From Alphaproteobacteria bacterium (GTDB lineage: Bacteria > Pseudomonadota > Alphaproteobacteria > UBA9219 > RGZA01): DNA of 34,626 nt. The first letter of the stretch is position 1; each line of letters opens with the position of its first letter. Made by a program: the position numbers and the translations under genes. The notes beneath the pieces are model-generated. The model ran no database searches and was not told the DNA's origin. It worked only from the letters and a program-made list of their open reading frames with translations. Shown piece after piece: positions 2,638 to 34,626 of this stretch. The stretch lies in contig JANQEX010000022.1 of NCBI GenBank assembly GCA_028278105.1, positions 1 through 34,626 on the forward strand. The letters run 5' to 3'.

Positions 2638-2667
2638 GAATGATGACGGGGAGTGACAAAATCTTTT

Positions 2668-2789
2668 CCCCTCCCCTTGAGGGAGGGGATCAAGGGGTGG
2701 GGTTTATTGGTTGCCATTCGGCATCACCGGAAAGAACAAAAGAATCCGACACTTCACCCCACCCCCAACCCCTCCCTCAAGGGGAGGGG
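2668..2789. repeat. Paired inverted CCCCTCCCCTTGAGGGAGGGG element between lptG and surA
   Basis: Two ~33-bp arms in inverted orientation around ~55 bp of spacer. Confidence 0.9.
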
Positions 2790-8847: not shown

Positions 8848-8935
8848 GATTGCGTTGTAAGCAAAGAACGACGAATGGCGTCATTGCAGGGAGGCCGGCG
8901 ACCCGGCTTCAAGGCTTTACGGTTGGGAAAGAGAA

Positions 8936-9089
8936 CCCCTCACCAGCAAGAACTAAGAGTTTAGCCGCTACGCGCCCAAACCCAAGTTCTTGCAACCTCT
9001 CCCTTCCGCCTCCGCTCTACGAGCTACGGCGGACGAATCTCCTTCAAGGACCTCGCCGTAGCTTTAGCGAAAGCGGGCAAGGGGAGAGG
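8936..9089. repeat. Composite palindromic element (GCAAGA..TTTAG module plus CCGCC..GGCGG module)
   Basis: Shares the CCTCACCAGCAAGA(A/G)CTAAG(A/G)GTTTAG module with 19472-19555 (opposite orientation) and the TTCCGCCTCCGCTCT.CGAGCTACGGCGGACG module with 9204+ and 33245+. Confidence 0.85.
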
Positions 9090-9097
9090 AAGAATCT

Positions 9098-9292
9098 CCC
9101 CTCCCCTTGAGGGAGGGGATCAAGGGGTGGGGTCCGCCGGTTGCCCATAGCGTAAATGGCAAGGCTTTGAAGGTACCACGCTCCACCCCTCCCCCAACCC
9201 CTCCCTTCCGCCTCCGCTCTGCGAGCTACGGCGGACGGGCTTGCTCCAAGGACCTCGGCGTAGCCGAAGGCGAAGACGGGCAAGGGGAGGGG
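9098..9292. repeat. ~195-bp composite palindromic element
   Basis: CCCCTCCCCTTGAGGGAGGGGATCAAGGGGTGGGG arm, spacer, inverted arm carrying a nested CCGCC..GGCGG module; homologous along its length to 33137-33331. Confidence 0.88.
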
Positions 9293-9344
9293 AGATCGGT
9301 TGTCCTTTTTCTAAAAGTGCTTTTGAAATTGGCCATAATATTCT

Positions 9345-19471: not shown

Positions 19472-19589
19472 ACCCCTCTCCCCCTTGGGGGAGAGGTTGC
19501 AAGAGCTTGGGTTTAGATGCGAAGCAGCTAAACCCTTAGCTCTTGCTGGTGAGGGAGTACCCTCCCCTAACCCCTCCCAGAGGGAGGGG
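19472..19589. repeat. Composite palindromic element downstream of the MGS-amidohydrolase gene
   Basis: CCCCTCTCCCCC arm, GCAAGAGCTTGGGTTTAG...CTAAACCCTTAGCTCTTGC long hairpin, then CCTCCCCTAACCCCTCCCAGAGGGAGGGG. Confidence 0.85.
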
Positions 19590-19601
19590 AATAAAAATCA
19601 C

Positions 19602-24249: not shown

Positions 24250-24315
24250 CTTCGCCAAGGCTACGGCGAGGTCTTGGCGTACCCGTCGCGCCGAAGCTTT
24301 TGCGGAGGCGGAAAA
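24250..24315. repeat. TTCGCC..GGCTACGGCGAGGTCTTGGCGTACCCGTCGCGCCGAAGCTT repeat, copy 1
   Basis: Near-identical copies at 34362-34435 and 34571-34626 in the same orientation. Confidence 0.88.
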
Positions 24316-24322
24316 TCCGGAA

Positions 24323-24372
24323 TCCAGCAACCGCCGAAGGTGGTTACATGTTGCCTATGGCAACACGCTGGA
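24323..24372. repeat. 50-bp three-way-junction palindromic repeat, copy 2
   Basis: TCCAGCAACCGCCGAAGGTGGTTACATGTTGCCTATGGCAACACGCTGGA. Confidence 0.85.
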
Positions 24373-24387
24373 TGCCAGCTTTCGGTA

Positions 24388-26679: not shown

Positions 26680-28161
26680 ATGAACAGACCCAGCCGTCTT
26701 ATTTTTACCGCCGCAGCCCTTGTCCTTGCTGCGGCGCCCCTCCTTGCCGAGGAACCGCCCAACGACGATCTGCTGCGCCCCATGATCGTCCGCCCGGTCG
26801 ACGGCTCTTCCGCTTCCGCCAGCACGTCCGCAAGCCCCTCCCCCAGTCATGTTCCCGCGCCGGTGGAAACAACGGCGCCGCCGCCTTCGGCCTCCGAAAC
26901 AATGCTGGTTAACCAAACAACCTATACTCAGACAGCCGCCGCCGAACCGCCGAAGCTCAAGCTGCCGCCGCCGCCTTCGGCCAGCTCCGGCCTTTCGGTT
27001 CCGCCCACCCGCACGGTGGCGCTTTCTCCCGGAGGGCGTAATCTGTTCGCCGATTTCGGTCCGCCCAGCGGGTCGGTGGTGTCGGACCGCGTGTTCCAGC
27101 TTCGTGACGAGACCATTGCTCTCCGCCGCAATATCGACAAGGACGCCGCCGAATTCAACGAATTGCGCGACAAGGGAGCGGCGGGAGCCATTCAGTATCA
27201 CGCGACCGTCGCCGCCATCAACGCCCGGCTGGAATCCGGAACCACGCGCGGCAATCCCATCTTGCTGCGCCAGTGGAGCGAGGCCGAGCAAAGCCTGAGC
27301 GAAGGGGATTACTCCATCTCGCGCCTGAACGTGATCGCCACGAATCTTGCCGCCAACAGCGCCACGGCCGCCTATCTGTTGCAGGCCGCGCGCGCCACTT
27401 TCGAGCTGGCCGGCGCGGTGGATGAAGACCATAGCCAACTCGCCATGATCCGCGACGAGGTGGCCCGCGCCACCGTCTCCATCGACGGCATGCGCGGCGA
27501 GGTGCATGAGGACATCAAGCGCCAGACCACCTATCAGGCGCGCGAGCGCCAGAATCTTCAGGTGCTGGCGCTGGCCATCAACCGGGGCGAGTTGATCCGC
27601 AACAGCCTCGCGGGACAGGCGGTGGTGGTTGCCAATCCCTCCTCTCTCGGCAGCCTGCCGGGCAGTTCGCTTGACTACAGCGGCTATCCCTCGCTGAATG
27701 GCGATGCCGTCATGATCCCGGTGACGCCCGCGGCCATACCGGCCGTGCCGGTGAAAAAGACGCCGCTTTCAAAACGCAGAAAACCCTCCCCCGCGCCGGC
27801 GGCAGCCCTGGCCCCGCCGCGCCCGCGGGCAAAAGCCGCCGTGCCCGCCGCCGATCCGCTGGGGCAATTGCTGGTCCTGGTGCGCTTCAACCAGGAAGAC
27901 GTGGCGTATGAGCAGCAGCTTTACCAGGCCGTGAGCGACGCGCTGGAAGTCAAGCCCGGCGCCGCCTTTACCGTGGTGGCCGTGACGCCCAAATCGGAAG
28001 ACCCCGCCGCCATCGGCTCGGATACCGAAGCCGCGCAGCGCCATGCCGATGAAGTCAAGAACTCCCTTGTGCAACTCGGCCTGCAACCCGGCAGCATTTC
28101 CATGAGCGGTATTTCATCCGGCAGCGCCCGGTCGCCGGAAGTGCATATTTACGTCCGCTAA
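26680..28161 (+). CDS. Secreted hypothetical protein with OmpA-like C-terminal domain
   Basis: Signal peptide (MNRPSRLIFTAAALVLAAAPLLAEE), Pro/Ser/Ala-rich low-complexity region, C-terminal 'VLVRFNQEDVAYEQQLYQAVSDALEV...AQRHADEVKNSLVQLGLQPGSISMSGISS...EVHIYVR'. Confidence 0.7.
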   Translation: MNRPSRLIFTAAALVLAAAPLLAEEPPNDDLLRPMIVRPVDGSSASASTSASPSPSHVPAPVETTAPPPSASETMLVNQTTYTQTAAAEPPKLKLPPPPSASSGLSVPPTRTVALSPGGRNLFADFGPPSGSVVSDRVFQLRDETIALRRNIDKDAAEFNELRDKGAAGAIQYHATVAAINARLESGTTRGNPILLRQWSEAEQSLSEGDYSISRLNVIATNLAANSATAAYLLQAARATFELAGAVDEDHSQLAMIRDEVARATVSIDGMRGEVHEDIKRQTTYQARERQNLQVLALAINRGELIRNSLAGQAVVVANPSSLGSLPGSSLDYSGYPSLNGDAVMIPVTPAAIPAVPVKKTPLSKRRKPSPAPAAALAPPRPRAKAAVPAADPLGQLLVLVRFNQEDVAYEQQLYQAVSDALEVKPGAAFTVVAVTPKSEDPAAIGSDTEAAQRHADEVKNSLVQLGLQPGSISMSGISSGSARSPEVHIYVR

Positions 28162-30030
28162 ATCAGGGACGGCTTCTACAAGTCCCCTTACCGAATTGCC
28201 CAGATAAACGGTTTCGGCTTTGTCCAGATCGGCGGAGCGTAAAACAGCCTCCCGCGCCTGGCCGGAATCAAGCAACGCGGCCCTCAGGCAACCGGGAAGC
28301 AATCCGCAGGAAAGCGGCGGGGTCAGGAGCTTTTCCTCACCCGGAATCCTGACGAACAGGTTGGTGAAACTGCCCTCGGTCAATTCGCCTTTTGAATTGA
28401 AAAACAGGATTTCGTCACAGCCTTCGGCCTGGGCCCCCTTACGCGCGTCATCGTAAAATTCCCGCGCGGTGGTTTTATGGGCAAGCTGCCAGGACGCGGC
28501 ATCCACGGGCTGGCCGGCAAGGCGGAAACGCAGGACTTTATCGGGCGCGTTTACCGGAGTTTCGGGCAGGGATACGCTGGTGATTTCAAAATCACCGGCG
28601 CGATTCAGCAAAAGACGCACGCGAAGAACCGGAGCGCCTTGCGCTTTCGCGTGATCTTCCAGCGCGGCGAAGATTTTATCCCCGTCACAGATAAAACCAA
28701 AATGCGTGGCGCTGGCCGTCAGCCGCGCCCTGTGCCGCTCTTCCAGCCATATCCCCTTGCCCTTTTCCCAGCGCATGGTCTCGATAAGCCGGATGTTTTC
28801 CGGGGGATCCGCGGGGCGTAAATCCCCGCTTCCGCGGGAATAACATTGTTGCAAAAACCGCATTTTCAGGAGCGCTTCGGCATATTCGGCCTTGGCCTCC
28901 GAATCATGGACAACCCCGCCGCCGATTCCGATCTCGGCCTGCCCCGCCGTATCCACCGCAACGGTGCGAATGGCCACATTGAACCGGGCTGAACCATCAG
29001 GCCCGAAATGGCCGATGGCCCCCGTATACACGCCGCGCGGCGAGGACTCCAGTTCCGCGATGATTTCCTGCGTCCTGATTTTCGGCGCGCCGGTGACCGA
29101 GCCCGGCGGGAACAGGGCGCGAACCAGTTCCGCCGCGCCTGTATTCCTTTTCAGCCGCGCTTCCACGGTGGAGGTCATTTGATGAAGGGTGGGATGTGTT
29201 TCGACCTCGAACAGCTTCGGAACCTTCACGCTGCCGGTTTCCGCGACGCGGCCAAGATCATTGCGCATCAGGTCGACGATCATCAGGTTCTCGGCGCGGG
29301 ATTTTTCACTTTGCGCGAGGCCTGTCCTTTCCTTCCGGTCCAGCGTGGCATCGTCATGCCGCGGCGCCGTCCCTTTCATGGGCCTTGTGACCAGATACCC
29401 GTCCTGTAGCGAAAAAAACAGTTCCGGCGAGCAGGAGATAACCTGAAAATCAGGAGTTTCGATATAAGCCCCGCAACTAGTGGGCTGGGCAGCGCGCAGG
29501 CGGCCGTAAAGCCCGCGCGGATCGGCGCAGGAAAACCGCGCCCGGAAGGTAAGGTTGACCTGATAGACATCTCCCGCCTCGATATGGGCCTTGACCCTGT
29601 CAAAGCGCTTGCGATAGGCGGCTTCATCCCATTCAACGCTTAAATTCCCCTCCCTCCGGGAGGGGTTAGGGGAGGGAAAAACGTAAGGAAACCCTAAGCA
29701 TCCTGGTTTTTCAGAGCTTCCCTCCTCTTTATCCCCTCTCCGTCTTCGCTCTTCAAGATTTGGCGGACAGGCTTGCCCCTCAAAAACGCCGAACCACAAT
29801 AACGGAAAACCGCGCCGCTCCGGCATAAGCGCGGCCAGCTTCGGCTCCAGCGCATATGAAAGCTCGTAAGAAAAAAAGCCGGCCGCGTGAAAGCCGGAAG
29901 CGAGCGCCGCTTCAAGCTGTGCCAGGGCAGGCTCAACCTCGTCCGGCCGGCCGGCGCGGATCACGCGGCGCGGATTTTCAAAAACAAGCGGCGGTTTTCC
30001 CGCTCCCTGCTCAAGTATCACGCACGTCAT
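28114..30030 (-). CDS. pabB: Aminodeoxychorismate synthase component I fused to class IV aminotransferase (PabB-PabC)
   Basis: Chorismate-binding motifs 'YQVNLTFRARF', 'TRPMKGTAPR', 'PPGSVTGAPKIRTQEII', 'GAIGHFGPDG'; C-terminal class IV aminotransferase 'LIETMRWEKGKGIWLEERHRARL', 'FNSKGELTEGSFTNLFV'. Contains an in-frame repeat insertion at ~29640-29780. Confidence 0.92.
   Translation of the reverse strand: MTCVILEQGAGKPPLVFENPRRVIRAGRPDEVEPALAQLEAALASGFHAAGFFSYELSYALEPKLAALMPERRGFPLLWFGVFEGQACPPNLEERRRRGDKEEGSSEKPGCLGFPYVFPSPNPSRREGNLSVEWDEAAYRKRFDRVKAHIEAGDVYQVNLTFRARFSCADPRGLYGRLRAAQPTSCGAYIETPDFQVISCSPELFFSLQDGYLVTRPMKGTAPRHDDATLDRKERTGLAQSEKSRAENLMIVDLMRNDLGRVAETGSVKVPKLFEVETHPTLHQMTSTVEARLKRNTGAAELVRALFPPGSVTGAPKIRTQEIIAELESSPRGVYTGAIGHFGPDGSARFNVAIRTVAVDTAGQAEIGIGGGVVHDSEAKAEYAEALLKMRFLQQCYSRGSGDLRPADPPENIRLIETMRWEKGKGIWLEERHRARLTASATHFGFICDGDKIFAALEDHAKAQGAPVLRVRLLLNRAGDFEITSVSLPETPVNAPDKVLRFRLAGQPVDAASWQLAHKTTAREFYDDARKGAQAEGCDEILFFNSKGELTEGSFTNLFVRIPGEEKLLTPPLSCGLLPGCLRAALLDSGQAREAVLRSADLDKAETVYLGNSVRGLVEAVPDLADVNMHFRRPGAAG
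29640..29780. repeat. Composite palindromic element inserted in the pabB coding region
   Basis: CCCCTCCCTCCGGGAGGGGTTAGGGGAGGG arm (29647-29676) and CCCCTCTCCGTCTTCGCTCT...TGGCGGACAGGCTTGCCCCT module (29733-29780). Confidence 0.85.
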
Positions 30031-30036
30031 CAGCCG

Positions 30037-31982
<1,946 letters not shown>

Positions 31983-32081
31983 TGATGCCGAGAATGCTTC
32001 GCCGCGCAAAAACTGTCAAATCATTCTTCACGGGCCTTCTCCGAAGGCAGGAGCCCATTTTATTTATCAAATTAAACGCAT

Positions 32082-33072: not shown

Positions 33073-33136
33073 TATTTTGTAAAATGCATAATTAAGGACT
33101 ATAGGACGAAACCTGATGCAACCAAGAAACCCAACT

Positions 33137-33331
33137 CCCCTCCCCTTGAGGGAGGGGCCGGGGGTGGGGTGGAGCGTTGTAGCTTCAAGGCCTTACCGCT
33201 TACGCGCGTGACAACCGTAAGACCCCACCCCTTGATCCCCTCCCTTCCGCCTTCGCTCTGCGAGCTTCGGCGGACGAGCTTCCTTATAAGGACCCCGCCG
33301 TAGCCTTGGCGTAGGCGGGCAAGGGGAGGGG
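33137..33331. repeat. ~195-bp composite palindromic element, second full-length copy
   Basis: Same outer arms and nested module as 9098-9292; the spacer matches the reverse complement of the 9098-9292 spacer. Confidence 0.88.
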
Positions 33332-33420
33332 AAAATTTCCTGCCAGCAAAAGATTTCTCCCGTTAGCTATAAACGATACAAGAACGCGCTCCAACCCCTT
33401 GTTTTTCGCATGTTTGCGCC

Positions 33421-34323: not shown

Positions 34324-34361
34324 GGCTAGGTTCAATGGACAATTACCAACACGAACATTCC

Positions 34362-34435
34362 CGCGCCCGGCTTCGCCTGCGGCTACGCCGAGGTCTTGGC
34401 GTACCCGTCGCGCCGAAGCTTGCGGAGGCGGAAAA
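34362..34435. repeat. GGTCTTGGCGTACCCGTCGCGCCGAAGCTTGCGGAGGCGGAAAA repeat, copy 2
   Basis: Same as 24250-24315. Confidence 0.88.
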
Positions 34436-34550
34436 GCGGGAATCCCATTTATTTTCAGGAACAAACTGGATTCCGGGTCGTGGTTGCTGCGCAACCTTGC
34501 CCGGAATGTTCGTTTAGGGTCTGAACTCAATTAGAAATGAATCAAACCAA

Positions 34551-34626
34551 ACAGATAACTGCTCATTCCGGCGCCCGGCTTCGCCTTCGGCTACGCCGGG
34601 GTCTTGGCGCACCCGTCGCGCCGAAG
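34551..34626. repeat. Terminal repeat: 23 bp identical to window positions 1-23, followed by copy 3 of the GGTCTTGGCG.ACCCGTCGCGCCGAAG repeat, cut by the window end
   Basis: ACAGATAACTGCTCATTCCGGCG at 1-23 and 34551-34573. Confidence 0.9.

Follow-up and report, generated by a model that had tools for sequence, protein, structure and literature searches.

An in-frame palindromic repeat in a pabB-pabC fusion gene, and further in-gene copies of the same element family in an alphaproteobacterial genome

A palindromic element present in many copies in this alphaproteobacterial genome lies in frame within the pabB-pabC fusion gene (here pabBC), where, with loss of most of the native linker, it would very probably form a translated loop that the enzyme tolerates. 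The gene lies in the window, by which we mean the whole stretch of 34,626 nucleotides that was analyzed. A reading of this DNA made from the sequence alone had placed a palindromic repeat in frame inside pabB at 29640-29780, and this was borne out by an open reading frame (ORF) of 638 aa and by dozens of matches elsewhere in the genome.

RESULTS

The host gene. The pabBC ORF runs on the minus strand from an ATG at 30030 to a stop at 28114 in a single uninterrupted frame and encodes aminodeoxychorismate synthase component I joined to aminodeoxychorismate lyase. Pfam places Chorismate_bind at residues 136-389 and Aminotran_4 at residues 415-618, PDB matches were also obtained, and solved PabB structures match the fold of the protein in a Foldseek comparison with its AlphaFold model. 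The gene and the parts of its insert are as follows.

28114..30030, minus strand: pabB-pabC fusion gene, host of the insert (ORF, Pfam, PDB matches, Foldseek)
29640..29776, minus strand: element-derived in-frame segment, residues ~85-131 (genome-wide matches, survey, pLDDT)
29644..29676, plus strand: left terminal arm AATTCCCCTCCCTCCGGGAGGGGTTAGGGGAGGG, a hairpin and one strand of the stem of the large palindrome (66 pattern sites, 63 stricter)
29677..29719, no strand assigned: private loop or middle of the pabBC copy (no match to other copies)
29720..29776, plus strand: first half of the nested 85-bp module, TCCGCCTTCGCTCT...GGCGGAC.GGCTTGC (genome matches)

Upstream, thiC (30037-31911, minus strand) and a TPP riboswitch (31879-31987; Rfam RF00059), the only Rfam match in the window, adjoin pabBC at 30037-31987. 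The start of pabBC lies 6 bp past thiC, so that this folate gene may be cotranscribed with thiC and thus come under thiamine control.

The insert in pabBC. Comparison of 29640-29776 with its own genome returned 52 matches, with E values for the left arm down to 7e-12 and a second matching block at 29720-29779; the 43-bp middle (29677-29719) had no matches elsewhere in the genome. The matching blocks are 90 to 97% identical over 33 to 42 nt to dozens of intergenic copies, and the two blocks keep the order that they have in complete elements. The left end of the pabBC copy is intact; on the right, the copy lacks its terminal arm and, of the nested module, the second half. The sequence-only reading had equated both the arm and the module with those of intergenic copies at 9098 and 33137. 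This stands for the nested module, which recurs in copies at ~9000-9300 and ~33120-33350, but not for the arm, given that the arms there are of a sister subtype and the closest arm in the window is an inverted one at 19560-19592 (97%, 33 nt).

An insert of ~45 residues between parts of PabB, with the frame kept open, had likewise been proposed, and it corresponds to residues ~85-131. Alignment to relatives served to define it, as had been anticipated: in same-family orthologs the corresponding position is taken by an unrelated linker of ~31 residues, and the linkers of 43 further alphaproteobacterial orthologs vary in length, are unrelated in sequence, and lack the repeat at the insert site. 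No target duplication is visible at the pabBC insert. The net length gain of pabBC over same-family orthologs is only ~16-20 aa, which is less than the length of the element and suggests that the insertion was accompanied, or later followed, by loss of the native linker. The simpler picture of a clean insertion into pabB was rejected for this reason, since the element mostly replaces a variable native linker and has no right end; with the linker gone and the copy truncated on the right, there is no clean empty site for pabBC.

In the AlphaFold model, pLDDT falls to ~40-59 across the insert and exceeds 90 in the parts around it, and the insert is thus predicted to be a disordered loop amid well-predicted PabB parts. 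Of the tolerated surface loop suggested from the sequence, the loop agrees with this predicted model; for the rest, we infer that the insert is translated, that the enzyme tolerates it, and that insertion preceded deletion. A special RNA fold of the insert was considered and rejected, the z scores being unremarkable (-1.6 for RNA, -1.0 for DNA).

Anatomy and copy number of the element family. The genome comprises 2.05 Mb in 119 contigs at 61% GC. A search with the left-arm pattern found 66 sites against 4 for a reversed-pattern control, and the arm thus recurs far beyond chance; a stricter pattern found 63 sites here, 12 in the congener G001, 9 in G004 of the same family, and few elsewhere in the order. 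The nested 85-bp module has ~46 genome matches. Complete compact copies are palindromes, mostly of 83-121 bp, with mirrored arms that each carry a hairpin. Within an arm, the hairpin CCCCTCCCnnnGGGAGGGG precedes a stem strand that reads TTAGGGGAGGG or ATCAAGGGGTGGGG; the right arm mirrors the left, and the ends of the element are of the AATTCCCCTCCC type. Composite copies, which carry GGGTC-rich loops and have the nested module set into an outer hairpin, reach 200 to ~330 bp. The copies in the window to which we refer are listed below.

2667..2789, no strand assigned: complete compact copy of the sister subtype, intergenic
8911..9300, no strand assigned: composite cluster of element modules, intergenic
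19560..19592, minus strand: closest same-arm copy in the window, intergenic (97% complementary over 33 nt)
33121..33350, no strand assigned: composite element with nested module, intergenic

The window also holds other palindromic repeat families, at 25-91 and 24314-24380 and at 34356-34626 (GGAATCCAGCAACCGCCGAAGGCGGTTGC...; TTCGCC...GGCGAGGTCTTGGCG...).

The survey covered an unbiased 754-kb sample (37% of the genome, ~74% of it called coding) together with the loci around all matches, and the in-gene count that it yields is a minimum. Nearly all of the 120 element intervals in the sample are intergenic, and 2 lie within genes. In gene calling by codon score, the weak codon bias of pabBC shifts its called start to a position past the insert; the in-gene census therefore used a scan for ORFs that span element copies, which could miss insertions that disrupt genes.

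In-frame copies in other genes. The sequence-only reading had pointed to a search for other ORFs containing the element, and this search was productive. On the evidence of the ORF-spanning scan, Pfam, and relatives, at least four further genes carry the element in frame: valS, rsmB, the gene for a BioC-like methyltransferase, and a methyltransferase-GT9 fusion gene. The frame is preserved in every in-gene copy found, and these copies use more than one reading frame of the element.

In valS, the insert adds a net ~38 aa ahead of the LTRDEDVLDTWFSS motif, and PF00133 (residues 25-624) spans it. The insert is missing from valS of G001 to G010 and G012, and G011 has an unrelated, longer loop at the site. 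The site in G001 reads YGKAVELKRDED and is insert-free. Separately, valS of G001 (L316, contig C176) has a frameshift ~50 residues upstream of the empty site, possibly an assembly error or a real lesion. A complete composite element lies ahead of LKLTPARHGADGFF in rsmB, and a complete element in the BioC-like methyltransferase splits the methyltransferase domain into residues 50-110 and 152-204. The methyltransferase-GT9 fusion carries a 42-aa insert that is absent from G001 and G006. At this locus (L292:8618-10195), a methyltransferase-like domain is fused to glycosyltransferase family 9, and the fusion itself occurs without the element in G001 and G006.

The congener G001 thus offers clean empty sites for valS and for the methyltransferase-GT9 fusion. 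The reverse case is prmC, which contains a complete in-frame element in G001 and is uninterrupted in the source genome. Presence and absence in both directions indicate, from sequence comparison, that insertion of the element is recent and repeated and that it went on after the source species and G001 split.

Several candidates were rejected. Long ORFs across elements in L017, L022, L029, L145, and others proved to be antisense or in the wrong frame, and at L216 (OTCase) and L218 the element lies upstream of the gene start. Downstream of the element at L218 (1831-4500), glycosyltransferase and KDO-transferase-like sequences share one open frame.

Other palindromes in the same loops. At the site of the source genome's rsmB element, G001 has a different repeated palindrome (VIPAKAGIQ...MPAFAGMT). 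A second in-frame insert of the PAKAGI/PAFAGM type was seen near the N terminus of G001 rsmB (L324, L360). In G009, prmC (L331/L357) has another multicopy repeat in the same loop as the G001 prmC element; it is in frame and 86% identical to another copy over 73 bp. That different repeats recur in the same loops speaks for loops that tolerate insertion and not for some trait of a single element. We lean, with modest confidence, toward the broader view that several unrelated palindrome families recurrently and independently enter the same tolerant loops (rsmB, prmC) in different species of this alphaproteobacterial order, with differences between congeners.

Mobility. Searches for a Y1/RAYT transposase (PF01797) gave 0 matches in the source genome (G000) and in G001, and control genomes were positive. 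Mobilization by a RAYT/REP system was rejected given that the source genome has no Y1 transposase. Among 26 complete copies there was no excess of flanking direct repeats, a weak test of target duplication in that C-run edges are ambiguous.

DISCUSSION

We propose that a GC-rich, modular palindromic repeat, MITE-like and presumably nonautonomous, entered PabB at the variable linker that joins its N-terminal part to the chorismate-binding domain. Its right end and most of the native linker would later have been lost, with the frame kept throughout, and the insert would now be transcribed and translated as a disordered loop of ~47 residues that the enzyme tolerates. Insertions into genes are presumably almost all eliminated, and the rare ones that fall in frame in a loop may survive. 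For GC-rich elements, 2 to 3 open frames would be expected from composition alone. Complete compact elements have 2.71 of 6 frames open compared to 2.40 +/- 0.21 in dinucleotide shuffles; selection for open frames inside the element was rejected, given that the shuffles are nearly as open. The open-frame count is what base composition predicts, so that no special coding design is needed, and frame retention would be best explained as survivorship.

That composition alone opens frames in such elements also favors a different explanation, in which pabBC is decaying or the segment is untranslated, either because translation of PabB begins only after the insert or because the frame of a pseudogene is open by chance. 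The codon bias of pabBC is weak, which fits this as well. We nonetheless consider it unlikely, given that both flanks of the insert share one stop-free frame of 638 aa, that pabBC keeps all the residues invariant across 44 orthologs, such as K219 of the P-x-K-G-T motif and the PLP lysine K519, and that the intact invariant columns include 46, 50, and 51, which lie in the N-terminal part ahead of the insert. The same pattern is seen in valS, an essential tRNA synthetase gene. The history of the gene bears on its constraint. In the tree, pabBC pairs with a Rhodoplanes protein (support 100/99), apart from the same-family orthologs, and its closest relative by identity is the Rhodoplanes serenus protein (~61%, compared to ~46-50% for the same-family orthologs). 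It is possible on these sequence grounds that pabBC was horizontally acquired, perhaps lately, and this possibility together with the weak codon bias means that the gene could be under relaxed constraint. If the position in the tree reflects transfer, insertion of the element postdates it.

We also considered that the insert has been recruited, so that the loop it adds would serve to improve or regulate the enzyme. In-frame retention in several housekeeping genes and the different repeats held by the rsmB and prmC loops in other species would be compatible with recruitment, but tolerance predicts repeated use of one loop equally well, and the pabBC insert is an unconserved, low-confidence loop with a private middle. 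Recruitment is therefore improbable in our judgment. We regard as more improbable still that repeats joined two unrelated pieces in a metagenome-like assembly. The 119 contigs, several of which end within such elements (e.g., C87, C55, and C22), make an artefact of this kind conceivable; against it, the two halves of pabBC share a frame and belong to one protein family, as its N- and C-terminal parts, a search of the genome found no second copy of pabBC, the middle of the insert is private, and five genes of the source genome and prmC of G001 behave alike. Finally, ortholog linkers do vary in length and sequence, but an ordinary native loop that merely resembles the repeat is contradicted so directly by the DNA identity, in two blocks and in complete-element order, that we give it almost no credence.

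Our preferred reading, a palindromic element tolerated in frame, would matter beyond this gene. Most descriptions of protein-coding palindromes come from Rickettsia and Wolbachia. A GC-rich family apart from these, whose insertions in genes such as valS, rsmB, and prmC can be dated, would show a wider supply of new loops to housekeeping proteins by small mobile DNA, and presence or absence in congeners gives natural pairs, with and without the element, for testing loop neutrality. It also calls for caution in the annotation and assembly of genomes that carry such elements.

Among known systems, REP/BIME sequences with their RAYT, in which the REPs are extragenic (PMC3733652), resemble the element as high-copy, mainly intergenic palindromes. 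The element is much longer, its genome has no Y1 transposase, and no GTAG/CGTC end tag was seen. Bacterial MITEs with open frames, such as the 107-bp form of Correia and ERIC/RU-1 (PMC2229807), are likewise small, bear inverted repeats, are noncoding by themselves, and occasionally give in-frame fusions, whereas no target duplication was detected for the element described here. The Rickettsia palindromic elements (RPE) are reported to occur in frame within conserved genes and at exposed sites (PMC2229807, PMC3767692, and PMC10969869). The sequence-only reading had likened the pabB insert to them, a comparison that the behavior of the element supports through the four additional genes, two with empty sites in G001. 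Like RPE and the Wolbachia palindromic elements (WPE), the family has many intergenic copies and some in frame in conserved genes, places the latter in loops, and has no visible mobility gene; its compact copies have the general size and shape of such elements (a palindrome of ~100-150 bp with terminal inverted repeats), and orthologs without the element exist. It differs in its GC-rich sequence, in a 61% GC genome, in its modular build, which includes the nested 85-bp module and composites of up to ~330 bp, and in that few of its copies lie within genes (2 of the 120 sampled intervals) and those that do are read in more than one frame. We therefore file the element as a putative new family of the RPE-like kind, placed there by its behavior.
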